Positions 3,090-29,031 of a DNA stretch of 29,536 bases are shown piece by piece. Made by a program: the position numbers and the translations under genes. The DNA is from a virus, in the IMG/VR virus record IMGVR_UViG_3300031673_000346, positions 1-29,536 of that record, one strand, 5' to 3'. Position 1 is the first letter of the stretch; each line of letters starts with the position of its first letter. Under the pieces are notes generated by a model. That model saw only the letters and a list, made by a program, of their open reading frames with translations. It made no database searches and had not been told where the DNA came from.

Positions 3090-3118
3090 CGTTATCCCTT
3101 CAATCGTCAATCCTAAAT

Positions 3119-3439
3119 CTACTTTAGACGGTTAAGCACTTCAAAGTCTTTTTCTTCTAAATCCCACGTTCCAACTTTTGGCGGTTTAACGTGCGGCATC
3201 GGTGGGAAATCTTTTTTCCGCAGCCTGGGCAGTCCGTGGTATTTTTCGTAAAACTCGCAAGCCGACGTATCCTCTCTGTGCCGCCCGCTAATAAAAAGGC
3301 AATCTTCCGTCATATGGTCGAAAAACATACAATTATGGCACGTGCGATTTCGCCGTCTTAACCATCGATAATAGGCTTCGTGGGCGAAGTATCCCAAAAA
3401 GCAGCCTATTGCCATGTAAAAAAATACGCGTTCTATCAT
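3119..3439 (-). CDS. Membrane-anchored cysteine-rich protein
   Basis: A 106-aa protein with one N-terminal membrane segment (residues about 4-20, VFFYMAIGCFLGYFAHEA), a short basic stretch (RWLRRRNR), then a Cys cluster C-x2-C ... C ... C (CHNC at 34-37, then DC and AC near 47 and 60) that could bind zinc. The tail is Pro/Lys-rich. Its ATG overlaps the stop of the MuB-like gene by four bases (ATGA), so it belongs to the transposition operon. Function unknown; membrane topology and metal binding are inferred from sequence only. Confidence 0.7.
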   Translation of the reverse strand: MIERVFFYMAIGCFLGYFAHEAYYRWLRRRNRTCHNCMFFDHMTEDCLFISGRHREDTSACEFYEKYHGLPRLRKKDFPPMPHVKPPKVGTWDLEEKDFEVLNRLK

Positions 3440-6987: not shown

Positions 6988-6998
6988 ATCTTTATTTC

Positions 6999-7066
6999 CG
7001 ATTTTCTATTTACTATTTTCGATTTTCAATTTTCAATTTTCTCTTCCTATACCCTCTTCCTATACC
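6999..7066. repeat. Composite tandem repeat (ATTTTC-type plus CTCTTCCTATACC-type)
   Basis: A gattttc/caattttc tandem tract is followed directly by ctcttcctataccctcttcctatacc. The second part recurs near 24862-24888. The repeat supplies the stop codon of the HTH gene (TAG at 7060-7062) and separates it from the zinc-ribbon gene. It belongs to the dispersed repeat set described in the findings. Confidence 0.75.
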
Positions 7067-7518
7067 TTGTTAACAATCATTGCGTAAATTCTGCCCTGCA
7101 GTCCCATCATCCGGGGAAATTCCTTTTTGAACCGTTCGATTGAGCGCCGGTCGGAATCATCGACCCTGCCGTCGGCGAAGATATCGAGTATTTCCTGCTC
7201 GACCCCGATTTGTGATCTGCGCATCTTTATCAGCGTCTCGAGCGAGCATTTAAGGTCCCCGCAGGTTTCAACCGGCACGCTGATTACCGATATATCGCCT
7301 GTTATAAGCTGTAGTATCCGCAGGTCGCGTGTCCGCCCGTACACCGTCCGCCAGATGACCGATGGTATTGTCGCCTCGCCGGACAGGTAGCGATAAATCT
7401 GCGACCCGCTTCGTCCGGTCAGGCTTGCCAGCTGCTTGACCGTCATCCCGGCGTCTTCCAGCGCCTGCGATAGTGTCAGGTTATCGTCCGACAATTCGTG
7501 ATCCTCTTGTTTGTGCAT
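7060..7518 (-). CDS. HTH regulator (XRE-like; Ner- or CII-like position)
   Basis: A 152-aa protein with an N-terminal helix-turn-helix (residues about 14-50: LSQALEDAGMTVKQLASLTG then SGSQIYRYLSGE). Next comes an IPSVIWRTVYGRTRDLRILQ block, which resembles the CII/CP76-type phage regulators. The C-terminal region is helical and charged (SLETLIKMRRSQIGVEQEIL). It sits upstream of the zinc-ribbon, transposase and MuB genes, where Mu-like phages carry a Ner-type control protein, so it probably regulates early transcription. The last two residues and the stop lie in a dispersed repeat. The start has ggaaa about 7 bases upstream. It could instead be the lysogeny repressor. Confidence 0.75.
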   Translation of the reverse strand: MHKQEDHELSDDNLTLSQALEDAGMTVKQLASLTGRSGSQIYRYLSGEATIPSVIWRTVYGRTRDLRILQLITGDISVISVPVETCGDLKCSLETLIKMRRSQIGVEQEILDIFADGRVDDSDRRSIERFKKEFPRMMGLQGRIYAMIVNKV

Positions 7519-7559
7519 CCCTGCGTTTCCTCAATCCGTTTCCTGTTTTCAATTTTTCC

Positions 7560-7643
7560 ACCACGAAGCTCACGAAGGCACACGAAGTTTTATATATACT
7601 TTATTATTTCTTTCTTCGTGTTTCTCTGTGCCCTTCGTGGTTA
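7560..7643. repeat. ACCACGAAG inverted-repeat element, copy 1
   Basis: Begins ACCACGAAGCTCACGAAGGC and ends with the near reverse complement cccttcgtggt, with an AT-rich centre (ttttatatatactttattat). A second copy at 8524-8607 is nearly identical over its first 45 bases. It could fold into a long imperfect hairpin. Here it lies between the HTH gene and a small zinc-ribbon gene. Confidence 0.85.
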
Positions 7644-7650
7644 ATTTTTT

Positions 7651-7852: not shown

Positions 7853-8050
7853 TTATTTTCGATTGCCGATTTTCGATTTACGATTTATGACTTTCACCAG
7901 CAAATTCGCAATGCCCATCGCCATCTCGCTGATAATTTCATCTACGCATCGGCTGCATAATCCCGGGCTGAACCACCAGCATCCTCCAGGACACGGCTTA
8001 TCGTCTGTGCATCCGCAGATAATACATGTTTGTATTTTCTCTATTGCCAT
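7853..8050 (-). CDS. Small CxxC zinc-binding phage protein with repeat-derived tail
   Basis: A 65-aa protein. The first 37 residues carry a pattern found in many phages: TCIICGCTDDKPCPGGCWWF then LCSRC, with Cys pairs suited to a zinc site. The C-terminus VINRKSKIGNRK is encoded by an ATTTTCGATTT-type dispersed repeat that also supplies the end of the frame. This suggests that an original gene end was replaced by the repeat. ggat lies about 9 bases before the ATG. The family's function is unknown; the conserved Cys part argues for a real protein. Confidence 0.75.
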   Translation of the reverse strand: MAIEKIQTCIICGCTDDKPCPGGCWWFSPGLCSRCVDEIISEMAMGIANLLVKVINRKSKIGNRK

Positions 8051-8504: not shown

Positions 8505-8523
8505 TTTACTTTCCAATTTTTTC

Positions 8524-8607
8524 ACCACGAAGCTCACGAAGGCACACGAAGTTTTATATATGCTTTATTGTTTTTTCTTCGTGGCTCTCTGCTTTCTTCG
8601 TGGTAAA
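8524..8607. repeat. ACCACGAAG inverted-repeat element, copy 2
   Basis: The same element as at 7560-7643. It overlaps the 3' end of the lysin-like gene, so the last residues of that protein (about TFTTKKAESHEEKTI) are translated repeat sequence and the stop codon lies inside it. Confidence 0.85.
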
Positions 8608-9309
8608 TGTTTTTTTCCTTAATCCGCCACGGCGGATAAATTCTAAATTCTTAATTCCCCATCTGACCGCCTCATCGTGTCCGTCAAAGTACACATCGAG
8701 TCTGCCCGCTGTTATCGCCCCGCCCCGGTCGAGCACCGGCACAGGTTTGCCGTCGTTATATCCGGGGATTATTATCATTGTCCCGAATGGGATTGATTTA
8801 TCGGCAGCGCAAAACCTGTCGCCTTTTCGGATTCTATGTCCGCTGGCTGTAATGCCGTCGGCGAATCTGCCGCAGCACTTTGCGCACGGGCAGTATGCCG
8901 TTACCTTGTAAATAGAGACGGCGGCCCCGTGGGTGGGAGCCGCCGTTTCCCGGCTGCTGTCCGATCCGGCACTGGAAAGGAGGGGTTGGGCATTTTCGAT
9001 TTTCGATTTTCGATTTTCGATTTCATCCCGACTCTCGACTCTCGGCTCTCGACTTATTTCATCGGCGATTGCCGCAATTGTTAGTGGGGCGGCGACGTTG
9101 CATGCCTGTTGACCGCCGCCGCCCGCTCCGTATGGGGTTTTTATTTTGACATCAGCGGCCGCTGCCGCCGCGATTATCGACTGCCGGCTGGATGAGAAGC
9201 AGCCGGCAGCGTAGGAGAAAACAATGAAACCTATCATGGCCGCGATAAAGATTACCATCCTTTTCGCGTGCCGCGTCTTTGCTTTGCCCGTATAAGTTCG
9301 TTTGTTCAT
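8554..9309 (-). CDS. 3D-domain lysin-like lipoprotein
   Basis: A 251-aa protein. The N-terminus is basic, then hydrophobic (MVIFIAAMIGFIVFSYAAGC) with a possible lipobox at AAGC (Cys37), so it may be membrane-anchored. Residues about 133-220 are a 3D domain, the fold of MltA-type lytic transglycosylase cores: VTAYCPC, then ASGHRIRKGDRFCAADKSIP, VPVLDRGGAI and RLDVYFDGHDEA. The three aspartates are about D170, D194 and D205. It is probably a peptidoglycan-cleaving lysis protein. Residues about 85-107 (VESRDEIENRKSKIENAQ) and the tail from about 219 onward are repeat-derived. The four CxxC-spaced cysteines near 140-146 are unusual. Confidence 0.8.
   Translation of the reverse strand: MNKRTYTGKAKTRHAKRMVIFIAAMIGFIVFSYAAGCFSSSRQSIIAAAAAADVKIKTPYGAGGGGQQACNVAAPLTIAAIADEISREPRVESRDEIENRKSKIENAQPLLSSAGSDSSRETAAPTHGAAVSIYKVTAYCPCAKCCGRFADGITASGHRIRKGDRFCAADKSIPFGTMIIIPGYNDGKPVPVLDRGGAITAGRLDVYFDGHDEAVRWGIKNLEFIRRGGLRKKTFTTKKAESHEEKTIKHI
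8992..9056. repeat. In-frame tandem repeat inside the 3D-domain gene
   Basis: Four ATTTTCG units, then tttcatcccg and actctcgactctcggctctcgactt. The tract is read through in frame and encodes the peptide SRVESRDEIENRKSKIEN-like stretch on the minus strand. The 7-base unit is not a multiple of three, so unit-number changes would shift the frame. Confidence 0.85.
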
Positions 9310-9369
9310 TGTCCGTTCTTTGGAATCTCAAATTTCAGATTTTTTACTTTGTGGCAAAACAGGCGATCA

Positions 9370-9549
9370 TTATCCAAGAACTGCGAGTTGATTGGCAAAG
9401 AAGTAAAATTCATGCATACACCCGTCTTTGTCGGGGTATCTGACATTGTATTGCATTTGACCGCCAAGTGTTTGGTAGATGGCGACTACCTCGCCTTTTG
9501 CGCCGGTTGCATTGATTTTAACTTTGCAGCCAAGTGTTATGTTTTGCAT
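9370..9549 (-). CDS. Small SH3/KOW-like phage protein, 59 aa
   Basis: MQNITLGCKVKINATGAKGE starts a beta-rich small protein with the rhythm 'V-x-D/N-x-x-T-G-x-x-G-x-V' typical of small phage SH3-like proteins of unknown function. The rest is GGQMQYNVRYPDKDG then FYFFANQLAVLG. aaaggga sits about 6 bases before the ATG. It follows the minus-strand terminator at 9651-9683 and precedes the lysin gene. Confidence 0.65.
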   Translation of the reverse strand: MQNITLGCKVKINATGAKGEVVAIYQTLGGQMQYNVRYPDKDGCMHEFYFFANQLAVLG

Positions 9550-9571
9550 ATAATCCCTTTCGTTAATTCTT

Positions 9572-9609
9572 GCCGGGCAGACCTGGGTATCGCATCAGGC
9601 CCGCCCGGC
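9572..9609 (-). other. Stem-loop in the leader of the small SH3-like gene
   Basis: GCCGGGC (9572-9578) pairs with GCCCGGC (9603-9609) and an inner CCTG/CAGG pair extends it. It lies between the minus-strand terminator and the next gene. It may be an RNA-stability or attenuation structure. No known riboswitch motif is visible. Confidence 0.4.
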
Positions 9610-9650
9610 CTTGGTTAAAAGCCGTCCCTTGGCATCCACTCCAGGGCGGC

Positions 9651-9683
9651 AAAAAAAATCTCAGCCGGCGCACGCCGACTGAG
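9651..9683 (-). terminator. Rho-independent terminator after the first leftward gene
   Basis: On the minus strand CTCAGTCGGC-GTGC-GCCGGCTGAG (one G-U pair) is followed by A and eight T. It overlaps the stop of the 63-aa gene (TGA at 9661-9663). It is strong enough to separate that gene from the rest of the leftward block, unless it is antiterminated. Confidence 0.85.
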
Positions 9684-9852
9684 CGGTTGATCGTAAAGCC
9701 CGAATTCTCTCCCTGCACCCGTCAAGCAAAATCCGCCGAGCGGAATCGTGCGGATACCGCTCTTCGAGCCGAGCAAGCTCATTGATTGCATCGATCACGT
9801 CAGGGTAGCTTTTTCTGCTGAATGCAAGGTTTTTTATTGGCCGAATTCCCAT
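9661..9852 (-). CDS. First gene of the leftward block, 63 aa
   Basis: MGIRPIKNLAFSRKSYPDVI then a helical, charged stretch (DAINELARLEERYPHDSARR). It is basic and probably cytoplasmic. It is the first gene after the switch region and ends in a terminator, so it is likely expressed alone, and is a candidate early regulator or antirepressor. An agga lies about 12 bases upstream of the ATG, which is a weak site. No HTH is evident. Confidence 0.55.
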   Translation of the reverse strand: MGIRPIKNLAFSRKSYPDVIDAINELARLEERYPHDSARRILLDGCRERIRALRSTAQSACAG

Positions 9853-9862
9853 AGTTCTTTTG

Positions 9863-9939
9863 ATTTCCTAAAATTACCAATTAGTACCTTAACACTTTCG
9901 GCTTTTTTGTCAACAACAAATTACTAAAAATTTCCTAAA
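9863..9939 (-). promoter_or_regulatory. Switch region: leftward promoter and putative operators
   Basis: The minus strand has a perfect -35 (TTGACA, 9913-9908) but no strong -10 at normal spacing. A 10-base direct repeat ATTTCCTAAA occurs at 9863-9872 and 9930-9939, each close to an AAATTAC[CT] box, and the pair flanks the -35. The region is very AT-rich compared with its neighbours. This layout suits a repressor-controlled early promoter; the regulator is not identified. Confidence 0.4.
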
Positions 9940-9956
9940 GTTTCTCCTTATTACCC

Positions 9957-9986
9957 TTGAGTCCTGATAAGTCTTTGTGTGATAAT
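9957..9986 (+). promoter_or_regulatory. Rightward promoter for the two-gene operon
   Basis: TTGAGT (9957-9962), an 18-base spacer, and GATAAT (9981-9986), which is preceded by TGT. Transcription would start about 9993, almost at the ATG at 9994, so the mRNA may be leaderless. There is no ribosome site before that ATG, which fits. Confidence 0.55.
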
Positions 9987-9993
9987 GATTTAT

Positions 9994-10344
9994 ATGGAAG
10001 AAAAATTTATCAAACGAGGTTATAATTTCGGCGAAAATCTGCTTAAAGTCTGGGAAAATTTTCACAGGCCGAGCAAGGATTACAGTCCTTCGGCAGCCGG
10101 GGCCTTTCTTGTCTGGATGACCTTGCCGCCGGAAATCCGCGAACAGGCCCGGCAGGCAGCCTGTTGTCAGGATATTGACCATCAGATACGAAAAATCAAA
10201 GAAATACTCGAAAAATACTATCCACCCAAGGGTGAAAATGTTATCGTTAAGCTTTTGGATGAACAAACGAGCCAACTGCTTGCCGAATTTCGCAAGTCAG
10301 TAGGCCCGGAACAGACCGCCAAAAGGAAGGCAAAATCGGGATGA
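9994..10344 (+). CDS. Switch-region protein, 116 aa
   Basis: Starts MEEKFIKRGYNFGENLLKVW. Five codons could be added upstream, but the promoter's predicted start lies at this ATG. The protein is helical and charged, with a central AAGAFLVWMTLPPEIREQA and a coiled-coil-like DIDHQIRKIKEILEKYY. The tail is basic (AKRKAKSG). Its stop overlaps the next start (ATGA). It lies where a Mu-type repressor gene would be, divergent to the early block, but no helix-turn-helix is visible. The family is not recognised. It could be an atypical repressor, an exclusion protein or a host gene carried by the phage. Confidence 0.6.
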   Translation: MEEKFIKRGYNFGENLLKVWENFHRPSKDYSPSAAGAFLVWMTLPPEIREQARQAACCQDIDHQIRKIKEILEKYYPPKGENVIVKLLDEQTSQLLAEFRKSVGPEQTAKRKAKSG

Positions 10345-10802
10345 AAACCCAATGTCCGGCATGCCAAAAATTGCAGGATATCCCTGATGCCTACAAGGGC
10401 CGCAAAATTAAGTGTACGGCCTGCAAACAGCCATTTGAAGCGATTCCGTTCCTCGATATCATCGTCTCACAACTTCCGCCGGACCCGCCCGCTAAACCGC
10501 CATCGCCGCCAAAACTGGCAATTTATACACCGGGACTTTCGCGTTTCCTGCAGGTTATTGCTGTTATTTGGTTTATCGGGGCCATAATGACTATAATCTC
10601 GAATTCTTCGTATTGGAGCTACCCCAGCGTCTATGTATATAAAGATTCCCTCTGGCGTGATATGTACGAGCAAATAATAGAAATCCGAAAAGAAAACTAT
10701 TCTACCCAGTGCGCCATCCAGGCGTTGTTGTCTATTATAATTTTTTGCCTGGTTGAAATTTCCATTGCGATAAAATCCCAAAAAAACAAATTAAAATTTT
10801 AG
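10341..10802 (+). CDS. Zinc-ribbon membrane protein
   Basis: A 153-aa protein. Residues 1-36 form an MJ0042-type zinc ribbon (MKTQCPACQKLQDIPDAYKG ... CTACKQPF; Cys pairs at 5/8 and 28/31). A Pro-rich linker follows (LPPDPPAKPPSPPK), then two hydrophobic segments (about 72-88, FLQVIAVIWFIGAIMTII; about 128-146, LLSIIIFCLVEISIAI). The layout suggests a membrane-bound sensor or scaffold. It is coupled to the upstream gene by ATGA. It may be a lysogenic conversion or superinfection-exclusion protein, by position only. Confidence 0.65.
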   Translation: MKTQCPACQKLQDIPDAYKGRKIKCTACKQPFEAIPFLDIIVSQLPPDPPAKPPSPPKLAIYTPGLSRFLQVIAVIWFIGAIMTIISNSSYWSYPSVYVYKDSLWRDMYEQIIEIRKENYSTQCAIQALLSIIIFCLVEISIAIKSQKNKLKF

Positions 10803-10812
10803 AAAAAATGAC

Positions 10813-10841
10813 TTGACAGCCGGAAGGGGGGTTGTAGTCTA
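10813..10841 (+). promoter_or_regulatory. Possible promoter for an untranslated RNA or late leader
   Basis: A perfect -35 (TTGACA, 10813-10818) in an intergenic region; the -10 side (tagtct/agtcta near 10835-10841) is weak. A G-run lies in the spacer. It could need an activator. Confidence 0.35.
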
Positions 10842-10844
10842 ACA

Positions 10845-10949
10845 AATGACAATTAAATTTTGGTTCAGGCCATCCACAATAGCCTGAGCCAACGGGACGA
10901 TATTTTCGGCCCGCTGACTGAGCGGTTGAACTCGGACAGCGGGCTTTTT
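10845..10949 (+). ncRNA. Candidate small RNA with two hairpins
   Basis: Between the promoter-like site and the late lipoprotein gene there is a 9-bp stem (GGTTCAGGC 10862-10870 with GCCTGAGCC 10882-10890, one G-U pair), a short spacer, and then a terminator hairpin ending in five T. No coding frame fits the interval. It may be a regulatory RNA or simply the 3' end of the two-gene operon. Not recognised as a known family. Confidence 0.35.
10909..10949 (+). terminator. Rho-independent terminator
   Basis: GCCCGCTG (10909-10916) pairs with CAGCGGGC (10937-10944) with an inner GAG/CTC, followed by TTTTT. It ends the two-gene operon and insulates the late operon. Confidence 0.85.
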
Positions 10950-10974
10950 CTATTTATACCCGCCTCCGAAAAAT

Positions 10975-10994
10975 GGTTTAACGGACTTAAAACC
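10975..10994 (+). promoter_or_regulatory. Imperfect palindrome before the late operon
   Basis: GGTTTAACGGACTTAAAACC is an imperfect inverted repeat just upstream of the first late gene. A related sequence lies at 29262-29277 (13 of 16 positions agree). It may bind a late activator; there is no direct evidence. Confidence 0.3.
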
Positions 10995-11016
10995 TTTTTT
11001 ACGAACGGAGTCTAAA

Positions 11017-11364
11017 ATGAACACTCACAGAGGCTTTCCCGCGATTCTGCTTTTTGCCCTTTGTCTTTTGCCCTTTCTTTTCACCGGCTGCGCCATCCAG
11101 CAGGCGCCAAAGGCGCAGCTCCTTGCCTCGCAGAAGGCTTATTGCGCGGTCGTCGATTCTCTCACATCTCTCAAATTGCAGGGCCATTTCAGCGACAAAG
11201 ACACCGCCGCTGTCACAGTCGCCGTCAACGAAGGGGCTGATTTTCTGTCCCGGTGGAAGTCGGCGATAGATGCCGGCGCCGATTCGCCCGACCTGTATGC
11301 CGAGTTTCAGTTGATTCTCGACAGGCTCATCGCTTACCAAATCGCTAAGGAGTCAAAGTTATGA
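11017..11364 (+). CDS. Late lipoprotein, 115 aa
   Basis: The N-terminus has a lipoprotein signal (FAILLFALCLLPFLFTGC-type run, lipobox FTGC near residues 22-25). The rest is helical (LLASQKAYCAVVDSLTSLKL, then DLYAEFQLILDRLIAYQIA). It is the first late gene, next to a holin-like gene. This suggests a lysis-related lipoprotein, perhaps an outer-membrane spanin component, though it is longer and more helical than classic Rz1. The start is supported by a cggag site about 6 bases upstream. Confidence 0.7.
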   Translation: MNTHRGFPAILLFALCLLPFLFTGCAIQQAPKAQLLASQKAYCAVVDSLTSLKLQGHFSDKDTAAVTVAVNEGADFLSRWKSAIDAGADSPDLYAEFQLILDRLIAYQIAKESKL

Positions 11365-11552
11365 ACACGCTCAATGTCCTTTTATTGATCCAGCTTGTCG
11401 CAAAGGTGACCGGTTGCGGCAAAGAAATCTTCGACCTCATCGAGCAGGTCAAATCCGGTCAGGAAATCACACAGGCCCAGATTGACCAGGCGGCTCAAAA
11501 TGCCGAGCAGTCCCGGCAGGATTGGCTCAAAGCCGTAGAGGCAAAGGAGTAA
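11361..11552 (+). CDS. Small late protein, 63 aa
   Basis: MNTLNVLLLIQLVAKVTGCG is a hydrophobic N-terminus, followed by an acidic, Gln-rich helix (EQVKSGQEITQAQIDQAAQN). The start lies within the stop of the lipoprotein gene, with aaggag upstream, so the two are coupled. Probably part of the lysis cluster; the family is not recognised. Confidence 0.65.
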   Translation: MNTLNVLLLIQLVAKVTGCGKEIFDLIEQVKSGQEITQAQIDQAAQNAEQSRQDWLKAVEAKE

Positions 11553-11553
11553 A

Positions 11554-11880
11554 ATGGAAAATCTCTCGTTTAACTTTACCCCGGACCTGTTCCCGCTGAT
11601 TTTCTGCGTGGCCGCCCTGATACAGTTCGTCAAGAAAATCCCGCTTCTGTCGCGGTACTCGGATTGGCTGCCCCTGTTGTCCTGTCTGCTTGGCATAGGG
11701 GTTGCGTATTTGCAGCACATCGGCAATCCGCTCGTATCCGGCATCGTCATCGGCGTTATAGCATCCGGCTCGTACGAGCTGCTCAAGGGCATCCCATCAA
11801 TCCCGCTGCCGTCCCCTGACAAAAACCCGCCCGATGATGCAAAGACCGCCCCGCCGTCCAATCAGCCGAGTATGAATTAG
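11554..11880 (+). CDS. Holin-like membrane protein
   Basis: A 108-aa protein with two or three hydrophobic stretches (about 10-25 LFPLIFCVAALIQF, 40-55 LPLLSCLLGIGVAYL, 60-80 PLVSGIVIGVIASGSYELL) and a polar Pro-rich tail (PLPSPDKNPPDDAKTAPPS). The size, topology and place after the lysis-type lipoprotein fit a holin, which would permeabilise the cytoplasmic membrane. No specific holin family can be named. Confidence 0.65.
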   Translation: MENLSFNFTPDLFPLIFCVAALIQFVKKIPLLSRYSDWLPLLSCLLGIGVAYLQHIGNPLVSGIVIGVIASGSYELLKGIPSIPLPSPDKNPPDDAKTAPPSNQPSMN

Positions 11881-11895
11881 CCGCAAAGGGAATAT

Positions 11896-12231
11896 ATGAA
11901 CGTGCTATCTGTGGTACTGACCATCATCTCCGCCGCCGCCGGCATAATCAGCGGCCTTGTGCTTTACAACCTTACCGGCATCCGCGAGGCCATTAACCGG
12001 CACACCGCCGACATCTCCGGCATCAAAGACCGCCTGTCGAATTTTCGCGGGGAATGCGACGACCAATATGCAAGCAAGGACGATTACATTCGCGAGGCCG
12101 GATACGCCCGGCGGTTCCAGGAAAGACAGATAGCCGATATGGCTGAAATCAAAACGCTGGTGAACAAGATGCCTGAAATGACCGGACAGATAGTCCGTTC
12201 CATAATGGCCGAAGTCAGACGAGGTGACTAA
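11896..12231 (+). CDS. Spanin-like membrane coiled-coil protein
   Basis: A 111-aa protein with one N-terminal membrane segment (VLSVVLTIISAAAGIISGLVL-like run, residues 3-24), then a long charged helix (REAINRHTADISGIKDRLSN and RRFQERQIADMAEIKTLVNK) typical of inner-membrane spanins or small membrane tethers. An aaaggga site precedes the ATG. The position after the holin-like gene supports a lysis role; the identification is by shape only. Confidence 0.6.
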   Translation: MNVLSVVLTIISAAAGIISGLVLYNLTGIREAINRHTADISGIKDRLSNFRGECDDQYASKDDYIREAGYARRFQERQIADMAEIKTLVNKMPEMTGQIVRSIMAEVRRGD

Positions 12232-12551
12232 TGAATAATCATCCAAACGAATCCGCCGAATCGCTTGCCATCCGGACGCAGCGGCGCATCCTGATGCAGT
12301 CCCTCAATTCATCCTTCCCGGCAAAGACCTTTATCAAGTCCCTGTTCAGGAATGCCATTTATGTCGAGCCGACGTATGAAAAATCTATGTTCATCAAGGA
12401 CGTTTTTTACCTGGAGAAAAAAGGCTACGTCGAAATCAGCGAAAATTGTCTGACCGAAGGCGGACCCTTGTTCGACAGGTTTATACTGCTTACCGCATCC
12501 GGCAAGGAAATCGCCGAGCAGACGATGATAGATCCTGCGATGAAAATATAA
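12231..12551 (+). CDS. Winged-helix protein before small terminase
   Basis: A 106-aa protein. LMQSLNSSFPAKTFIKSL and FYLEKKGYVEISENCLTE, then FILLTASGKEIAEQT, make an ArsR/MarR-like pattern: helix, recognition area, wing ('kGYVEI'), and a final helix. Mu-like phages carry a small DNA-binding protein just before the small terminase, and this one matches in place. The start overlaps the previous stop by one base (taATG) with gaggtga upstream. Likely packaging or regulatory. Confidence 0.65.
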   Translation: MNNHPNESAESLAIRTQRRILMQSLNSSFPAKTFIKSLFRNAIYVEPTYEKSMFIKDVFYLEKKGYVEISENCLTEGGPLFDRFILLTASGKEIAEQTMIDPAMKI

Positions 12552-12557
12552 TTGATA

Positions 12558-12615
12558 TTTGGTAGTTTTGATTTGGTAGTTGAAACTTAGAACTCAAAAC
12601 TTAGAACTCAAAACT
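12558..12615. repeat. Tandem repeat before small terminase (TTTGGTAGTT and AACTTAGAACTCAA)
   Basis: Two ttggtagttttga/tttggtagtt units, then AACTTAGAACTCAA twice with a 14-base period (12584-12612). It stands directly before the ATG of the small terminase and displaces any ribosome site. A TTG at 12580 opens a longer in-frame reading that would translate the repeat (KLRTQNLELK). Confidence 0.8.
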
Positions 12616-13173
12616 ATGAGAAGAACTCACAGTACAATAGATTCTTTACCCGCCGATATCCGGGCGGTCATCACCGCTATGGTCGTCGATGCCGTGTGGC
12701 CTGAAGGTTGCAACCCGGTTGATTCCGGCGGTAAGCCGACTTATGAAGATATCGTCCTGTATCTTGCGTCAAAGGAGCTATCCGTCAGCCGTTCTGCGAT
12801 CGGCCGCTGGGCCAAGGGTCTGCGTGTCTTTGAGCGGATGCGGACGGCGGCGGGGCTGGCCAAGCAGATTATGGCCGATGTCAGGGATGAGGACGCCTCG
12901 GCGGCGCAGAAAGCGGCGGCCGAGATAATCACCGCCCAGATTATCGACATGGCCTCGTCGGAGGATTTAAAGCCCAAGGATATTTCGATGATTGCCGGGG
13001 CCGTGCGGGATTGCAGCAACGTCGCGATGGCCGCCGATAAATACCGCCGCCAGCAGATAAAGAGCAAGGCCGAGGCGGCGGATAAAACCATCACTGAAAT
13101 CGCAAAGAAGAAAAAACTTGATCCCGAAACGCTCAAGATAATCCGCGAGCAGGTCTATGGAATCGTAGCATGA
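12616..13173 (+). CDS. Small terminase subunit (Mu gp27 / DUF3486 family)
   Basis: A 185-aa protein that starts MRRTHSTIDSLPADIRAVI. The family pattern is clear: 'R-x-S-x-I-D-x-L-P-x-x-I', then PTYEDIVLYLASKE and LSVSRSAIGRWAKGLR, a HTH with the S-R-S-A-x-x-R signature. A long helix-rich tail follows (AAEIITAQIIDMASSEDLK, KKLDPETLKIIREQV). It recognises phage DNA for packaging with the large terminase. The stop overlaps the large-terminase start (ATGA). A longer start from the TTG at 12580 would add repeat-encoded residues and is rejected. Confidence 0.85.
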   Translation: MRRTHSTIDSLPADIRAVITAMVVDAVWPEGCNPVDSGGKPTYEDIVLYLASKELSVSRSAIGRWAKGLRVFERMRTAAGLAKQIMADVRDEDASAAQKAAAEIITAQIIDMASSEDLKPKDISMIAGAVRDCSNVAMAADKYRRQQIKSKAEAADKTITEIAKKKKLDPETLKIIREQVYGIVA

Positions 13174-14429
13174 TAGCGGCCGTACCATTATATCCGCATC
13201 AGACCCGATGGGTCACAGACCACAGCAGGTTCAAGATGGGCCTGCAGGCACGTCAGACCGGCAAAAGCTTCGAGGTCGCTCTTGAAGCCGCCGATGACGC
13301 CGCCGCAACCGCACAGACATGGGTAATGCTCTCTCGTGGCGAGCGGCAGAGCCGGGAGCTAATGGAAAAGGCCGCGATGCACTGCAAGGCCTATCAGGTC
13401 GCAGCATCGGCAATCGATGAAGACCGTTATAAAATCGATGATAACGAATACAAACAGCTCACTATCGTACTCAATAATGGCGCACGGCTTATCGGCCTGC
13501 CCGCCAACCCTGATACTGCCAGGGGTTTTACCGCTAATGTCATACTTGATGAGTTCGCAATTCACAAGGATAGCCAGAAGATTTGGACCGCCCTTTACGG
13601 CACGATTACCAGAGGTTTCAAGCTCCGCGTTGTTTCCACTCCGATGGGCAGGCAGAACAAATTCTATCAGCTATGGAGTGGTCAGAATAACTACGCCAAG
13701 CACTTTACCGACATTTACAAGGCCGTCGAGGAAGGGCTGCCGGTTGACATTGAAGAGCTTCGCAGAGGCCTCGATGATGAAGAGGCCTGGGCGCAGGAAT
13801 ATGAGTGTAAATTCCTCGATGAGGCGACCGCGTTTTTGACTTACGAGCTTATCGCATCCTGTGAATCCGAACAGGCATCCGCAGATTTACCCGACAGGCT
13901 CGAAGGCCGCACATTTGTCGGCGTCGATATCGGCAGAAAGCGAGACCTGACGGTCGTCTGGGTCATCGAGCAGCTCGGCGATGTTTACTGGACACGGGCG
14001 GTAATCGAGATGGAAAAGACTCCCTTCCCTGTTCAGCGGCAGTTGATAGAGCAGACATTGCGCAGTATCCGGGCGTCGCGCACCTGTGTCGATTATACCG
14101 GAATGGGCGGCCCGATTACCGAAGACCTGCAAAAGTCGTTCGGGTCGGCGGCGGTAGAGTCGGTTACATTCACCAATCAAGTCAAGGGAGATTTAGCCAA
14201 CCGCACCCGCAAGCTGTTCGAGGATCACCGCGTAAGGATTCCGGTCGATAACAAAATCCGAAACGACCTGCACAGCGTCAAAAAAACCGTAACATCGGCA
14301 GGTAATATCCGCTTCGACGCCGAGCGTACCAAAGATGGTCACGCCGACAGGTTTTGGGCGTTAAGCCTTGCCCTTATGGCCTCCGACGCCGGAGTCGTCA
14401 AACCGGAGCTAATTTGTTTAACGGCATAA
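13170..14429 (+). CDS. Large terminase subunit (Mu gp28-like)
   Basis: A 419-aa DNA-packaging motor. The ATPase part has a Walker A-like ARQTGKS at 27-33, Walker B VILDE at 124-128, and a coupling-type VVSTPMG about 154-160. The nuclease (RNase H-like) has acidic residues at D253 (GVDIGRKRD), D308 (CVDYTG) and D393 (GHADRFWAL). Its length is near the shorter end for the family. ATG overlaps the small-terminase stop; the portal follows after one base. It cuts and translocates phage DNA into the capsid. Confidence 0.92.
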   Translation: MIAAVPLYPHQTRWVTDHSRFKMGLQARQTGKSFEVALEAADDAAATAQTWVMLSRGERQSRELMEKAAMHCKAYQVAASAIDEDRYKIDDNEYKQLTIVLNNGARLIGLPANPDTARGFTANVILDEFAIHKDSQKIWTALYGTITRGFKLRVVSTPMGRQNKFYQLWSGQNNYAKHFTDIYKAVEEGLPVDIEELRRGLDDEEAWAQEYECKFLDEATAFLTYELIASCESEQASADLPDRLEGRTFVGVDIGRKRDLTVVWVIEQLGDVYWTRAVIEMEKTPFPVQRQLIEQTLRSIRASRTCVDYTGMGGPITEDLQKSFGSAAVESVTFTNQVKGDLANRTRKLFEDHRVRIPVDNKIRNDLHSVKKTVTSAGNIRFDAERTKDGHADRFWALSLALMASDAGVVKPELICLTA

Positions 14430-14430
14430 T

Positions 14431-16803
14431 ATGATAAAGCAGATTTCCAACATAATCAGAAACCTCGGCAGGCTAAAGGATATCACACTGCCGCTCTCAA
14501 AGTTCGGTCAGGCCTTTGATATGGGTATTGACACAACATCCGGCGCATCCGGCAGGCCGTCCATGCCCTACAACCAGGTTGACTGGGTGTGGCGATGCGT
14601 CAACCTGATTCTCGATGTCTGTCAGGATATCCAGCCGATAATTTCCGCAGCGGATGACAATATTATCGAGTCCGGTCCGGCCTTTGATTTCTTCTTTAGT
14701 AACCCCGACACTTCCTTCGCATCTTTCCTTCGCGATACGTCCGGTTTCCTGCTTTTGCATCGCGAGGCATATTGGATATTTACCGAGACCGACAAGATTG
14801 TCCCTACAAAGATTACTGTCGTCGGCCGCGACCAGATTACTCCGGAGGTCAAAAACGGAATTCTTCTCGGCTATAAATTCCAGGATGGGGCGGGCAGGGA
14901 AATCCCTCTATTTATCGAAGATGTTTGGCCGCTGATAAATTTCAACCCTGACAATCGCTTTCGCGGGGCAGGTCCGCTGGATGCGGGCAAGCTTGCGATA
15001 TCCAGCGCATACCAGGCCACACAATACAACGAGGCCACGATGGCCAACGGCGCACGCATCGGCACTATCCTTACCGTGCCCGCCGGCGTCAAGCTCGATG
15101 ACAACGAAATAAAGGCGATGCGGGCGCAGTTCGAAGCCCAGCAGGCCGGGGCAAGAAACGCCGGCAAGACATTTATCGCCACCGGCGGCATTGATGTAAA
15201 AACCGTCAGCCAGACGATGGCTGAATTGCAGATGATAGACCTGCGCAAATTCGACGCCGCTGCGATATGTGCGATGTTCGGCGTCCCGGCCGAGATGGTC
15301 GGCTTAAATCCCGAAGCCCAGTATGCCCACGGCCCGGCGTCGCTGCGGTTTTTCCTTTATACGATTTCGCCTCTGCTCTCTTTTATCGCATCGGGCATCA
15401 CCGCAGGCATCCTGCGCCGGTTCAGGTTCCGTATCGACAAGCACAAATCCGCTCCGCAGCAGGTCTCTAAAATTTACTGCGGCGCAGCGCAAAAGGTGAC
15501 TGCAAAGCAGGCCTATCGCCTGCAAAAGCACAAGGCGATTTCCGCCGGCGCCTTGCTGTTTTTCTGGTTTGATACCGATTCGCACCCGGCGCTGCAGGAT
15601 ATGCTTCGCGATCGCGCGGCCAAGATGCTTGAATTCAACAAGGCCGGAATTCCTATCAACCCGATTATCGACGCCGGCGACCTGCCGTTCGAGCACGTCC
15701 CGTGGGGCGACGACTGGTTTATCCCGATGGGTCAGGTCCCGGCAAGGTGGATATTGGAAGGCGGTCCTGAGCAGCTCATCCCGCCTCCGCTGCCCGAAGG
15801 CGGCGAAGAGGAAGAGCCACAGCCGAAGGCTGTCGATGATTCAATCGTCCATCGTCAATCGTCAATCGTCAATGAGAAGGATGACAGCAGGCGCAGCCGT
15901 ATATGGCTTAAGTACATCGCATCATTTCAGGCGATAGAATTGCAGTATGCCTCGGCGGTACGGCGGTTGTTCCTTGACCAGCGAAGAGAGCTTATTGCCA
16001 AGCTCGAAGCCGCATTAAAAGATTCCGGCTACCAGCCTAAAATAATCGACAATCGTCAATCATCAATCGTCAATAAGGCGGATACATCCGCCATAGTTGC
16101 CCGCGTCGTTTTCGACATCAAAAAAGAAAATGGCAAACTGAAAGTATTTCATCGGGTCTTTTATGAGCGGTCCGCAAAACTCGGCGCCGCTCAGGCCGCG
16201 TTCGAGGCCGGCCAGTCTGTTCAGCAGGCGGCGGCATCCGCAGCGCAGCAGTTAAACAGCCGGACAGTCCGCAGCGCACTTTCCGTATCAGCGCACAAAA
16301 TCAGCAAGGTCAACTCCACCACAGCCGATCGCATAGCCAATACGCTGCGGCGGGGTCTGGATAGCGGCGAAAACCTATCTCAACTTACCGGCAGGATAAA
16401 AGACACGCTCGATACCACGCGTCCCCGGGCGCAGATGATTGCCCGCACGCAGGTTTCCGGCGCGGTATCGGCGGGCCGGCAGGCCGGTATGCAGGCTGCC
16501 GGCATCGAAATGAAGGGCTGGCTCTCGGCCCGCGACAAAAACGTTCGTCCTGAACACAGAAAAGCCGAGGCCGACTATGCTTCGGGAATTCCCATCAATC
16601 AGTCCTTTGTTGTCGGCGGCGAGGCTCTTATGTATCCCGGCGACCCATCCGGTTCGGCGGCGATGATAATCAACTGCCGGTGTATGCAGATCGCTTTGGC
16701 GGCCGCCGGCAAGTCTTTCGATTTGGATTATCATGACAGAGCAAAAATCCTGTCTGAAACCGATATTAAACCGCATTTAACGGAGGTTCAAAATGCCACC
16801 TGA
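14431..16803 (+). CDS. Portal protein fused to MuF head-morphogenesis domain
   Basis: A 790-aa protein. Residues about 1-450 form an HK97-type portal (NQVDWVWRCVNLILDVCQDI, later DVWPLINFNPDN, PLDAGKLAISSAYQATQYNE, VPAEMVGLNPE). A Pro/Glu linker follows (PEGGEEEEPQPK). The C-terminal part is MuF/SPP1 gp7-like: RAQMIARTQVSGAVSAGRQA about 665-683, then GWLSARDKNVRPEHRKAE and the closing INCRCM about 746-751. In Mu and most relatives these are two genes; here one frame carries both. Two repeat-derived peptides (SIVHRQSSIVN about 471-481; IIDNRQSSIVN about 537-547) flank the start of the second part. The tail overlaps the protease start by 11 bases. Confidence 0.9.
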   Translation: MIKQISNIIRNLGRLKDITLPLSKFGQAFDMGIDTTSGASGRPSMPYNQVDWVWRCVNLILDVCQDIQPIISAADDNIIESGPAFDFFFSNPDTSFASFLRDTSGFLLLHREAYWIFTETDKIVPTKITVVGRDQITPEVKNGILLGYKFQDGAGREIPLFIEDVWPLINFNPDNRFRGAGPLDAGKLAISSAYQATQYNEATMANGARIGTILTVPAGVKLDDNEIKAMRAQFEAQQAGARNAGKTFIATGGIDVKTVSQTMAELQMIDLRKFDAAAICAMFGVPAEMVGLNPEAQYAHGPASLRFFLYTISPLLSFIASGITAGILRRFRFRIDKHKSAPQQVSKIYCGAAQKVTAKQAYRLQKHKAISAGALLFFWFDTDSHPALQDMLRDRAAKMLEFNKAGIPINPIIDAGDLPFEHVPWGDDWFIPMGQVPARWILEGGPEQLIPPPLPEGGEEEEPQPKAVDDSIVHRQSSIVNEKDDSRRSRIWLKYIASFQAIELQYASAVRRLFLDQRRELIAKLEAALKDSGYQPKIIDNRQSSIVNKADTSAIVARVVFDIKKENGKLKVFHRVFYERSAKLGAAQAAFEAGQSVQQAAASAAQQLNSRTVRSALSVSAHKISKVNSTTADRIANTLRRGLDSGENLSQLTGRIKDTLDTTRPRAQMIARTQVSGAVSAGRQAGMQAAGIEMKGWLSARDKNVRPEHRKAEADYASGIPINQSFVVGGEALMYPGDPSGSAAMIINCRCMQIALAAAGKSFDLDYHDRAKILSETDIKPHLTEVQNAT
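15841..15873. repeat. CAATCGTCAAT-type repeat at portal/MuF joint, copy 1
   Basis: Tcaatcgtccatcgtcaatc then gtcaatcgtcaat: four near-identical 8-10 base units, read in frame as SIVHRQSSIVN. Same unit as near 2930 and 3100. Confidence 0.8.
16044..16074. repeat. CAATCGTCAAT-type repeat in portal-MuF gene, copy 2
   Basis: Aatcgacaatcgtcaatcat then caatcgtcaat, read in frame as IDNRQSSIVN. It lies about 200 bases after copy 1. Confidence 0.8.
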
Positions 16804-21252: not shown

Positions 21253-22352
21253 TGGACGCTCCTGTAATCACACATGCATCCGTTGCCGACGGTATTGTTA
21301 CACTGACACTCACCGGCGAAGGCGTTGTCTCTATTTACAGCCGTCTATCGGGAGTCCCCGCCTGGACTCTTTCCGCGACCGCCGAATCGACCGATGATCC
21401 TATCGAGATTTCCGGCCTGACCCCCGGCCGAATGTATGAATTTTACGCCGTCGCGAAAATAGAAGAATTAGGTAACGAAAAAGTTATAAATGGTGAGTTT
21501 GGCACTGACCTGACGGGCTGGATAGCGAACGGTTGGATTTGGGCGTCAGGATTTGGGCCCGATTTAGGCGTTGCCAAGTTTAATTATCAGGAAGACGAAG
21601 GGACTATATATCAGGAAATAGCAACCGAGGCGGGGAAAACATATCGCATTTCGCGAAGCAGTATGCTCGGCACTCCCATTTATATTATCGGCGGGCAGGA
21701 GATATTGATAACCGAATATCCTTTCTTTTACACTGCGGACTCGTCGATGGTCGCCATTCAGGCCAAAGCGGATAGTTGGGGGGATGCTTATATTGATAAT
21801 GTTTCCTTCAAAGAAGCGATTACCTTTTATTCCCCGCCGTCGGGCGTCGTCAGCGTTTTTGTTTGCGCCGACCAGCTTGCCACCGACGCCGGTATGCTTG
21901 CCCGGCTTGAGGCCTGGGCGGTCGGCATCCTTTCGGCGCTTCAAAATGGCGGCGCGAACCTGTTTCGCTATGTCGAACCGTGGCGGTATCAGATAGGCTT
22001 CGGCAATTCCGGCGTCGAATCGTTCGAGCGATTTGCGCCTTTTGCTTATGTTAAGGCCGAGTTCGCCCGCGCCGAACGCGAGGGCGGCTATGACCTTAAT
22101 ATGCGCGTAAGGCTCACTGTCTCTGTCGGCCAGAAAAGTCCAAAGCCTGATGGCTCCGCCCGTATCGGCGATGGGACACGGATTGGCGTCTCGCGAATGA
22201 CCGACCTCGTCCGGGCGGCCTTTGAAGGCGTCCATCCGGGGACGGGATTCAACTGTGATGATTTTTATTTCTCCGACTGGTTCGAGACAGTGGCTATGAC
22301 GGATAAGTACGCCGCCGAGCTTGCCTTCGAGGCAAACTGGATGACTCAGTGA
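21252..22352 (+). CDS. Tail terminator with Fn3 and carbohydrate-binding-like insert
   Basis: A 366-aa protein. Residues about 1-75 read as a fibronectin type III domain (VADGIVTLTLTGEGVVSIY, EISGLTPGRMYEFYAVAKIE). About 78-190 resemble a CBM domain (VINGEFGTDLTGWIANGWIW, IYQEIATEAGKTYRISRSS, AYIDNVSFKE). The C-terminal half (LARLEAWAVGILSALQNGGA to the FYFSDWFETV end) is a tail-terminator-like alpha/beta domain. Ordinary terminators are about 130-180 aa, so the first half is an add-on that would decorate the tail neck. Junction at about residue 200. Confidence 0.7.
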   Translation: MDAPVITHASVADGIVTLTLTGEGVVSIYSRLSGVPAWTLSATAESTDDPIEISGLTPGRMYEFYAVAKIEELGNEKVINGEFGTDLTGWIANGWIWASGFGPDLGVAKFNYQEDEGTIYQEIATEAGKTYRISRSSMLGTPIYIIGGQEILITEYPFFYTADSSMVAIQAKADSWGDAYIDNVSFKEAITFYSPPSGVVSVFVCADQLATDAGMLARLEAWAVGILSALQNGGANLFRYVEPWRYQIGFGNSGVESFERFAPFAYVKAEFARAEREGGYDLNMRVRLTVSVGQKSPKPDGSARIGDGTRIGVSRMTDLVRAAFEGVHPGTGFNCDDFYFSDWFETVAMTDKYAAELAFEANWMTQ

Positions 22353-22420
22353 ATTAAGAATTAAGAATTAAGAAATTAAAAATAAACCCGTGTAAATCTG
22401 TGTCTGAAAATTGAAAATGG
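22353..22420. repeat. Composite repeat A+B before tail-tube gene
   Basis: Aattaagaattaagaattaa (A block), then aaataaacccgtgtaaatctgtg (B block), then a gaaaattgaaaatg part. It lies directly before the ribosome site (ggag) of the tail-tube gene. The same A then B order recurs at 25287 and 28033. Confidence 0.8.
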
Positions 22421-24799: not shown

Positions 24800-24890
24800 A
24801 ATGAGGAAGAGTGATAGAAAATTAAAAATGAAAAATAGAAAATGGAAAACCAAAACACCCTCTTCCTATACCCTATTCCTATACCCTATT
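24800..24890. repeat. Repeat tract before distal-tail gene
   Basis: An AT-rich gaaaat/aaaaatg tract followed by ccctcttcctataccctattcctataccct. The ctcttcctatacc unit also occurs at 7041-7066. An aggaagag copy at its left end is the reverse complement of ctcttcct, so a hairpin is possible. The distal-tail gene starts just after it without a clear ribosome site. Confidence 0.75.
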
Positions 24891-25286: not shown

Positions 25287-25352
25287 ATCAAGAATGAAGA
25301 ATGAAGAATTAAGAAATAAAAAAATCCGTGTTAATCCGTGTTAATCCGTGGT
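25287..25352. repeat. Composite repeat A+B before tail hub gene
   Basis: Agaatgaagaatgaagaatt then aagaaataaaaaaatccgtgttaatccgtgttaatccgtg: A block followed by three B units. The last B unit gives a GTG that opens a slightly longer reading of the hub gene. Confidence 0.85.
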
Positions 25353-25356
25353 TGAA

Positions 25357-27561
25357 ATGGTTTCTGATTCGCAAAAACTTAGCCGAACCGCCCAGCCGCT
25401 TGTAGTCGAGTACAAGCAGGGCTTCGGCACGCCGCCCGCATACCCGGCATACTGGACGCCGCTGTTTGGCGCCGCTGTCGAGCGTATTATAATCAATCAC
25501 GGCACAACCCCCAACTCGGCTATCATCCGGTTTAATGACCTTTACTGGCAGCAGGCCCGTTCTGTCCGCTGGGGCGATATGATACGCATCCGTACCGACC
25601 AGCCCGCTCGCGGCGACGGCACGCCGTCTCCGGGGCAGGCCCGCACAGTGGTCTTTATCGGCTTTGTAACCGCGTGGCAATCATCGTACTGCGGCGGCGA
25701 TGAAAAACGCCAGGCATGGGAAAAGAACAGCTTTGTTTGCGGCGACTTCCGCTGGCTGATTTCCGCCACAAGTCCTGTTTACGGCCAGTGCGCCAGAAGC
25801 CCGGATGATTACTGGAATTTCGGTTACTCGAATCAGACCACAAAGCCGACCGCCACATTTATGTCGGGCCTGCGATGTATTTTTAACCCGGATGGCAGGC
25901 CGAATAAAGACCGTACAGATGCGACCGCCACAATAAACAATATCGAGTTTGATTATCCCGTCTTTGCCAACCCCGACCGCCGCGCAACCGGCGCTGTCGC
26001 CGAGTATTGGACCTGCCGACAAATGGTCCGTTATCTGCTCGGCCCGAACTTTAACGCCGCGTTCGCGTACCTGCCTATTACCAACCCGGCAATCCTGCCA
26101 GGCATGGAGCACAAAGACTGGGACAGGGTAATCAACTCGGTCAATGTTGATGGTCTGGATGTCATCTCGGCGATAGGGCTTATCTGTAAACATATCGGTT
26201 GGTCGCTGCGTGAGGAATATTTTGACAGTTGGTCTGCGCCTGTGGGTCTTGTCTTTTATAAACCCGGCGCCGCCGCCGGCTATATCCGAGATGCAAACAA
26301 CCGAACCATCCTTCATCGCCCGCACGCCCCAGCCGTCGGCGATTATATCAACCCAGCCGTCGCCGCAGGCGTCAAGCTGCTCTGGTCGATGGACATCGAC
26401 GAGGATATTACCGGCGTCGTCAACAATCCCTGGGGCCTTGGCGCCCCGGATAAGTTCGAGGCGACGTTTAACTTAGTTCCGGGCTGGCAGGATTCCGACC
26501 TCGTCCCCGATTCAGCATCCAGCTACGCCAACCTGTTCAAGACTGAAGCTGAGATTCAGGCCGAAGCTAATCCCAATCAGTGGAGTTTCTTTAACAAATA
26601 CCACGCGCGGGGAGCGGCGTTTCTCCGCGATGTCGGCCGCAAATGGGTTCTTAATGAATCCGGCAAATACTCCGCGACCGCCTACGATCGCGGCGTCCCC
26701 TTTGACTTTGCGGCGGTCCTGCCGCCCCAGTATATTCTTTATAACGGCAAGCGAATTTACGCCCCGTTTAACCGTTCCTTTTTGAATTGTCTGACATTCG
26801 ATAAAGACTCGCTGAATTCAGTCGGACTTCGCGTCGAGTTCTCTTTTGATAGCGGCGCTACATGGCAGATTATCTCCGCGATGATAGAAAACCTGCCCGG
26901 CGAATGCGGCATTCGCATCACCGAGCCGAATCTGTGCGAGATGCTCGATATCGCAAAGGGCAGCATCGCATCCGGTCCGCTTGCCGGTAAGGAGCTTGAT
27001 TACTGGACCAGCCTTGCCGATGACAAGGTTAATTCCCGCGTCTTCAAAGACGGACAATGGAAAACCCGTGTCCGCGTCACGGCAACTGTCCAGATGGACC
27101 AGCGTCTGCGTCGTCAGTCCCCGCCGGCGGATGGTTGCGGCTCGCCGTTTTATCAGCGGCGGATTCTGGATTTCTCCGATAAATATGGCATCCAGCAGCG
27201 CACAACCGCCAGCGTCTTTACGGCATCGGGCCTGCCCGCATGGAACACTGACTATACATTGCAGCTCGAAGCCCACGTCGATGCCCTGCGTAAGGCCAAT
27301 CAGGATATGAGTATCAACGGGCGCTTTACATTCGAGCGTCTCTGGCTCGGCGATGGGTCCGGCTGTCCCGACTTTGCCTGCGGCGATTGTATCGAGTGTA
27401 TTACCGGCAGGGATTACAGTCTGGCCGCTACCATTGATAAAAACAAGGTGGTCTTTCCTGAAATAATCCAGATTACCTTTTTTCCCGAAGCCCAAAAGAT
27501 GAATCTTGTCACCCGCGACCTGCGTCTGGCCGAGTTCGTCCAATGGAGCGGCGATAAATGA
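25357..27561 (+). CDS. Tail hub / baseplate protein
   Basis: A 734-aa protein from the ATG; a GTG three codons earlier lies in the repeat and is less likely. It has a mixed beta fold with RIIINHGTTPNSAIIRFNDL and WGDMIRIRTDQPARGDGTPS, a Trp/Tyr-rich middle, and VDGLDVISAIGLICKHIGWS. It ends VFPEIIQITFFPEAQ, then LRLAEFVQWSGD. Size and place after the distal-tail-like gene fit a hub or tail-associated baseplate protein. The first 230 residues look like a conserved head. Exact class is unsure. Confidence 0.7.
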   Translation: MVSDSQKLSRTAQPLVVEYKQGFGTPPAYPAYWTPLFGAAVERIIINHGTTPNSAIIRFNDLYWQQARSVRWGDMIRIRTDQPARGDGTPSPGQARTVVFIGFVTAWQSSYCGGDEKRQAWEKNSFVCGDFRWLISATSPVYGQCARSPDDYWNFGYSNQTTKPTATFMSGLRCIFNPDGRPNKDRTDATATINNIEFDYPVFANPDRRATGAVAEYWTCRQMVRYLLGPNFNAAFAYLPITNPAILPGMEHKDWDRVINSVNVDGLDVISAIGLICKHIGWSLREEYFDSWSAPVGLVFYKPGAAAGYIRDANNRTILHRPHAPAVGDYINPAVAAGVKLLWSMDIDEDITGVVNNPWGLGAPDKFEATFNLVPGWQDSDLVPDSASSYANLFKTEAEIQAEANPNQWSFFNKYHARGAAFLRDVGRKWVLNESGKYSATAYDRGVPFDFAAVLPPQYILYNGKRIYAPFNRSFLNCLTFDKDSLNSVGLRVEFSFDSGATWQIISAMIENLPGECGIRITEPNLCEMLDIAKGSIASGPLAGKELDYWTSLADDKVNSRVFKDGQWKTRVRVTATVQMDQRLRRQSPPADGCGSPFYQRRILDFSDKYGIQQRTTASVFTASGLPAWNTDYTLQLEAHVDALRKANQDMSINGRFTFERLWLGDGSGCPDFACGDCIECITGRDYSLAATIDKNKVVFPEIIQITFFPEAQKMNLVTRDLRLAEFVQWSGDK

Positions 27562-28031: not shown

Positions 28032-28032
28032 A

Positions 28033-28092
28033 GAATTAAGAATGAAGAATTTAGAAATAAAAAAATCCGTGTTAATCAGTGTTAATCTGTGT
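28033..28092. repeat. Composite repeat A+B before zinc-ribbon gene
   Basis: Gaattaagaatgaagaattt then agaaataaaaaaatccgtgttaatcagtgttaatctgtg. Same A and B order and orientation as at 22353 and 25287. The start GTG of the next gene is its last B unit. Confidence 0.85.
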
Positions 28093-28907: not shown

Positions 28908-28938
28908 CTCCGTGACGCGATTTATTAAATTGAAAACT

Positions 28939-28957
28939 TGTCCGCCGCAGGCGGACA
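28939..28957. repeat. REP-like palindrome, copy 1
   Basis: TGTCCGCCGCAGGCGGACA is a perfect hairpin with a three-base loop, preceded by AACTT. A second copy (AACTTA then GTCCGCCGCAGGCGGA) is at 29032-29052, and a shorter relative is at 8623-8636 in the lysin gene tail. Confidence 0.8.
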
Positions 28958-29031
28958 GACAATTGAAAATAGAAAATTGTCGAGGTAGGCACAAACAGAC
29001 CGGCAAGAGCCGACTGTTTGATGGCCGAAAA

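Follow-up and report, generated by a model that had tools for sequence, protein, structure and literature searches.

We describe short tandem repeats, mostly with a seven-base unit, that are read in frame within genes of a Mu-like transposable phage and that recur in genes of other phages and of unrelated bacteria. The phage is IMG/VR record IMGVR_UViG_3300031673_000346, and the window analyzed here spans this entire record, 29,536 bases in length. Its repeats have a 7-nt period at the DNA level and dispersed copies, are absent in relatives, and reuse the same tolerant sites. We regard it as probable that these DNA-level repeats, heptamer arrays together with a hairpin that has short-repeat arms, multiply and spread irrespective of genes, with selection filtering the outcome.

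Repeat arrays and the proteins they encode

Tandem Repeats Finder returns 22 rows for the window, 13 of which have a period of 7, 14 or 21, and exact runs of 14 or more matches at lag 7 number 3 compared to 0.0 per dinucleotide-style shuffle; when all lags from 4 to 30 are pooled, the shuffles yield 0.01 such runs. Tandem 7-nt units in three or more copies are present beyond chance, which upholds the statement of an earlier, sequence-only reading of this DNA that some units have 7 bases and are not multiples of three. At a threshold of 11 or more matches, exact lag-7 runs number 5 in the window, 5 in the related record L012 and 16 in the related phage G807, with 0 in four other prophage relatives, and no runs of this length are seen at lags 4-6, 8, 9, 11 and 12 in the window or the relatives compared. 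Besides the prevalent 7-bp arrays, the window contains 10-bp and 13-bp arrays and a hairpin of ~85 nt, hereafter the CACGAAG hairpin. Individual units are found at several sites of a genome, mainly intergenic, and those shared within the window include a composite 60-bp spacer (three copies), the CACGAAG hairpin (two) and a 13-mer (two).

Repeats touch four genes at six places, the remaining arrays being intergenic; three proteins are clearly changed and a fourth gene receives its stop codon (repeats are given without strand unless a sign is stated). In the 3D-domain protein (8554..9309, minus strand), which is peptidoglycan hydrolase-like with PF06725 at residues 167-219, a linker at residues ~86-106 is repeat-coded (RVESRDEIENRKSKIEN, arrays within 8992-9054), being formed from ATTTTCG (4.6 copies, 8992..9023, read as IENRKSKIEN) and CGACTCT (3.7 copies, 9029..9054, read as RVESR). 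Its tail, residues ~219-251, is coded partly by a GAATTAA array and partly by the CACGAAG hairpin, whose left arm provides the final ~19 residues and whose loop provides the stop. A second ATTTTCG array of 4.6 copies (7855..7886, read as INRKSKIGNRK) codes the final ~11 residues of a small zinc-type protein (CICGCTD...CSRC; 7853..8050, minus strand), whose terminus is VINRKSKIGNRK with the stop adjoining the array, and phage homologues of this protein align over residues 8-42 alone. The portal-MuF fusion (14431..16803, plus strand; PF04860 and PF04233) carries arrays at residues ~471-481 and ~538-548, namely TCAATCG in linker 1 (4.7 copies, 15841..15873, plus strand, read as DSIVHRQSSIVN, with the repeat peptide SIVHRQSSIVN) and AATCGTC in linker 2 (4.4 copies, 16044..16074, plus strand, read as IIDNRQSSIVN). 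Finally, the helix-turn-helix (HTH; CII-like) gene (7060..7518, minus strand) owes both its final residue and its TAG stop to the 13-bp repeat CTCTTCCTATACC, which is present twice at 7041..7066 and has a second site at 24857-24890; the sole homologue, in G581, extends 7 residues beyond the window version.

The sequence-only reading had derived the HTH stop at 7060-7062 from a repeat, which is borne out, and had proposed that repeats are translated in at least five genes. In-frame reading stands, whereas the number does not: there are four genes, "five" being a count of places, and the range 8554-16074 assigned to them omits two of those named. A possible fifth gene is p737 (25348), the GTG start of which lies within a 10-bp array, though a later ATG could be the start. 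AlphaFold2 models of the portal and 3D proteins, which are of medium quality (mean predicted local distance difference test score, pLDDT, of 67), place both portal arrays within low-confidence segments (448-486 and 540-546) and assign pLDDT <50 to the 3D tail (228-251), while the array-coded 3D linker is predicted with moderate confidence to be a short helix. The sequence-only reading held that the repeat peptides share no fold with their hosts; the 3D linker, by its model, is not shapeless.

Because 7 is coprime to 3, a heptamer array runs through all frames in 21 nt and specifies one heptapeptide per strand, whichever frame is used. A unit that is not a triplet is no obstacle, since a stop-free array needs merely a net length that is a multiple of three. 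CGAAAAT is read as RKSKIEN and IFDFRFS, whereas CGTCAAT (RQSSIVN) and CGTAAAT (IYDLRFT) are read through on one strand and give a stop on the other; for any one strand, 69% of all heptamers encode no stop.

Recurrence in related phages

Relatives of the window were gathered via a terminase scan and a prophage search, and the comparison set with the same gene order comprises two prophages (C26 and C9) of one Planctomycetota genome (G172), G581, G705, L012, which is the closest relative by terminase (71%), and G807, the portal of which is 39% identical to that of the window. A direct portal scan gave only one contig and no match among cellular genomes. Of 14 portal relatives, 13 are free of repeats in both linkers. 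The 12-residue segment of array 2 is missing in all 13 array-free relatives, with the alignment picking up again on either side, and array 1 sits in an acidic linker whose length varies among all relatives; the clean absence that the sequence-only reading had predicted for such alignments is thus seen for array 2, but array 1 lacks clean boundaries. The 3D linker is unalignable across the 10 relatives aligned, and L012 carries other repeats there (CCAATCGTCAATCGTCAATCC, read as PIVNRQSL, and three copies of CCCTCTGTG).

Both portal linkers of G807 are occupied by 7-bp arrays that differ from those of the window (SQIANRVSSIENQVSSIENRASKIEHRESSIE and NPESRTLNPEPRTDE), and further arrays are located at both portal ends and in MuA (SQIDNRKSRIENQ). 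The window and G807 fall on separate, well-supported branches of the portal tree, so that the hits on these linkers are independent; the tree requires two changes, and a single one suffices in 0% of the bootstrap trees. Within one phage the heptamer units vary widely (AATATTG, ATCGAGT, CGAACCA, GAACCCC), with the period alone being constant. The G807 record (L321-L323), a 31.6-kb related phage, has arrays at many gene junctions and is the densest case found.

Heptamer arrays in cellular genes

A single site in a housekeeping protein shows the same behavior. Among 29 orthologues of the copper pump CopA from one Anaerolineales family (median identity 80%), the loop before AMVGDG has the ordinary short form in 6 and is longer by 3-22 residues, always in frame, in 23. 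DNA of the expanded loops has an identity of 0.52 at lag 7 and 0.45 at lag 14 compared to 0.26 (maximum 0.29) after shuffling, although the period is nearer to 8 in a few loops, and repetition is slight in two or three of the 23. The units vary (CGWMAAT, GGTCAAC, AACGTTC and others), and close sisters differ: L327 has an array and L329 has none (support 100/100), while L340 and L343 (100/99) carry different repeats. Moreover, some CopA loops are hairpins with tandem-repeat arms (folding z-scores of -3.8 to -6.2), the same architecture as that of the CACGAAG element. Because hairpins and plain arrays alternate among CopA sisters, these data suggest that both belong to one process. Extra CGWMAAT arrays elsewhere in the genome are present in 6 of 6 genomes with a CGWMAAT-type loop versus 1 of 6 with a short loop, albeit in a small sample, but an exact search for the other CopA units across the family gave few copies, and genome-wide homogenisation to one unit is therefore not supported.

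Among the matches listed, the pattern CGWMAATCGWMAATCGWMAATCG is present in cellular genomes that, by record title, represent at least about a dozen phyla; viral contigs contain it in 73 stretches, whereas a reversed-pattern control nearly always gives zero matches. Loci with the pattern hold 176 other period-7 arrays compared to 5 hexamers. Using the same simple gene caller, 64 of the 122 cellular arrays listed are intergenic compared to 130 of 1170 random points, so that genes are avoided by arrays yet not spared. In-frame lodging in unrelated protein genes is seen in phage and cells alike; alignments to Pfam families and PDB structures locate arrays within CopA (10 residues relative to 3j09), AroE (12 residues relative to 1nvt), LytB, a radical-SAM protein, a TsaB-like protein, the starts of MurD and UvrA, and a prepilin-like leader. 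A Chloroflexota AroE gene (L162 2981-3913, minus strand) has two different arrays, the second of which is read as FDLRPSTFDLQPSTFN, and the prepilin-like (N_methyl/DUF1559) leader at L245 725-1690 is a heptamer array that ends at the G|FTLIELL site.

Proposed mechanism

These observations can be accommodated if array length changes by slippage in 7-nt steps and if copying between arrays, by template switching or gene conversion, disperses them. Purifying selection would then remove copies that break genes, leaving survivors at intergenic junctions, beside stop codons, where they would supply new tails or stops, and in linkers that tolerate extra residues. The repeat peptides would be by-products without a proven job of their own, and the hairpins may be mobile elements in their own right.

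Several points weigh against this proposal. No array has been caught forming, slippage and copying being deduced from end states, and we infer translation of the repeat peptides from intact reading frames. The zinc-protein and HTH tails have few or distant homologues for comparison, and the cellular carriers are mostly metagenome-assembled genomes, although the isolates Aequorivita viscosa and Kordia periserrulae carry arrays too, among them one at the beginning of a MurD gene in A. viscosa. In addition, the G807 MuA array and portal linker 2 show little or no net length gain. Some arrays thus replace sequence instead of adding to it, which points to conversion besides insertion; the original idea that repeat insertion has rewritten gene ends and linkers, mostly leaving genes unbroken, is sustained for the rewriting but not always for insertion.

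A broader version of the proposal is more speculative. The arrays might represent cross-phylum DNA spreading in 7-nt steps, in which units change and the period is constant, which resettles the same linkers of phage and bacterial proteins and, being neutral to frame and often free of stops, acts as a general generator of linkers and tails, and which transposable phages carry between lineages.

Alternative explanations

It is possible, if rather doubtful, that the arrays arose by transposition from a family of small mobile elements resembling miniature inverted-repeat transposable elements (MITE) or repetitive extragenic palindromic (REP) sequences, with transposase provided in trans and the heptamers being decayed or arm-only copies of hairpins. 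The CACGAAG element is indeed an inverted-repeat element with dispersed copies: copy 1 (7556..7648) is intergenic and folds strongly (z of -7.9), and copy 2 (8520..8612; z of -5.3 to -7.2) is a 93% direct copy of 7546-7612. Its ACCAC...GTGGT ends are also found in CACAGATTAA hairpins, which the L012 phage record carries at three gene junctions (L012 17913, L319 2676 and 4778), and the CopA-loop hairpins occupy the site at which sisters carry plain heptamer arrays. The plain heptamer arrays tested, however, form no fold and are not palindromes of ~100-150 bp, only the CACGAAG element being palindromic, and units vary widely within one phage around a constant period. Moreover, no target-site duplication is demonstrable; both CACGAAG copies have similar T-rich flanks, and no partner transposase was identified. 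Two copies of another, REP-like palindrome (TCCGCCGCAGGCGGA) are located near the right end of the window (28933-28955 and 29030-29052), and ATCCGCC palindromes near 8632 and 16079, which were weighed as a further element, are possibly due to chance.

A role at the DNA or RNA level, in termination, spacing before starts or the binding of regulators, such as has been proposed for TAACTGA repeats, with the coding cases as spill-over, seems improbable. Arrays do adjoin stop and start codons, and the CACGAAG hairpin is terminator-like in appearance. A composite spacer of ~60 bp, built from 7-bp GAATTAA and 10-bp AATCCGTGTT arrays, is present in three copies, each right after a stop codon and two of them 93% identical, and AAACTTAGAACTCA (2.4 copies, 12583..12615) directly precedes the likely start (ATG 12616) of the small terminase subunit (TerS). 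Prophage relatives that share the gene order nevertheless do without arrays, and junctions that are tight in them hold 60-110 nt of repeats in the window. The gap between p366 and p303 (repeats at 22343-22402) is 76 nt compared to 19, 11 and 18 nt in relatives that have no array at this junction; that between the genes ending at 24786 and starting at 24897 (repeats at 24814..24890) is 110 nt; and that between p129 and p737, which holds the composite spacer (25287-25350), is 61 nt, whereas these genes overlap in both G172 prophages and are 83 nt apart in L012, with a CACAGATTAA hairpin in the gap. The 93% spacer copy (28032-28092) directly follows the p157 stop. In addition, the heptamer arrays are foldless, and their units are not conserved by position. 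Other intergenic repeats of the window include a TATTTTC array (6993..7042) and near-identical heptamer stretches (TTCAATCGTCAATC; 2921-2941 and 3099-3119) that flank an intergenic stretch of ~160 nt.

We consider it quite unlikely that the peptides themselves are selected, phage and host using polar repeat peptides as linkers in the manner proposed for Borg repeat proteins. The location in linkers and tails, and the recurrence at the same linkers of G807 and in one CopA loop, would fit such a use, yet the majority of arrays are intergenic, the DNA period of 7 is no multiple of 3, sisters carry different peptides, and most portal relatives do without them. In contrast to the heptamers, a genuine repeat at the protein level is found in the product of the gene at 27558-28031, where codon-sized 15-bp repeats (27720-27817) specify FGHxPFGHxPFGHG. 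Chance low complexity or assembly artefact, for which it can be said that the viral and most host records are metagenomes, is ruled out by the near-zero shuffles and by in-frame arrays in homologous genes, CopA included, from many independent assemblies, and two isolate genomes carry arrays as well.

Phage and host

The window encodes a MuA-type transposase (PF02914 and PF09299), a MuB/TniB-type AAA ATPase and a tailed-phage head module with terminase, portal-MuF fusion and capsid, which together identify a Mu-like transposable phage. Terminase relatives with 66% and 56% identity are held by the two G172 prophages, and no terminase match was found in 201 Chloroflexota genomes, for which reason this phylum was rejected as the host; on these grounds a planctomycete is the likely host. 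The repeat load of the host was also considered as the cause of the arrays and was rejected, since among 39 genomes from the family of the prophage host only 3 contain the strict pattern.

Significance and comparison with known systems

Stop-free heptamers, which encode one peptide whatever the frame and so can drop into linkers, are a source of new protein sequence requiring neither gene duplication nor codon-sized repeats. Repeats that spread can remodel proteins while leaving them unbroken, both in a Mu-like phage and in housekeeping genes from unrelated bacteria. A CopA loop within a single bacterial family offers about thirty natural replicates, including sisters with and without an array, in which origin, turnover and cost are measurable. 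It is also a warning for annotation that repeat DNA of recent origin makes up some tails and linkers, and identical heptamers in distant phyla call for explanation.

Heptameric short tandem repeats are known in bacteria, examples being the short tandemly repeated repetitive (STRR) sequences of cyanobacteria, and long simple sequence repeats have units of 5-11 nt. Like the arrays described here, they have a 7-nt unit in a few to tens of copies and are dispersed, mainly intergenic and patchy across phyla. Here, by contrast, other units (CGAAAAT, CGTCAAT, CGTAAAT and more) are translated inside structural and housekeeping genes because they are stop-free on at least one strand. TAACTGA repeats, none of which is among the 22 Tandem Repeats Finder rows of the window, have a patchy cross-phylum distribution with suspected horizontal spread, and their translation has been discussed, the forward reading being LITDN-stop; heptamers are cited in the same study as the most frequent class of long repeat, with triplet units the most frequent within genes (PMC4679880). 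G-rich heptamers, GGGAATC and GGGGA(C/T)T, have been described in Xanthomonas and Nostoc (PMC4692102).

Rickettsia palindromic elements place repeat DNA in frame at tolerated positions of many unrelated genes (reviewed in PMC10969869), as do the arrays reported here, but they are palindromes of ~150 bp belonging to fixed families in Rickettsia, whereas the repeats here are for the most part 7-bp arrays whose units change and which occur in phages as well as in many phyla. Borgs are likewise mobile genomes with many tandem repeats, about half of them in genes, where they give rise to disordered protein regions, yet their in-gene units are all divisible by three and almost never shared, while the coding arrays described here have a unit of 7 that is shared between sites (PMC9879509). 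PARCEL repeats are also translated across distant microbes but consist of 25-residue amphipathic units in their own open reading frames, many of which are membrane-targeted (PMC2996958). Six strings, units found here or their peptides, had no match in the literature text searched, a corpus with subscription journals mostly outside it. Repeats with heptameric units are thus already known, as is selfish DNA that lies in frame within genes; what is new is that stop-free 7-mers repeatedly fill the same linkers.

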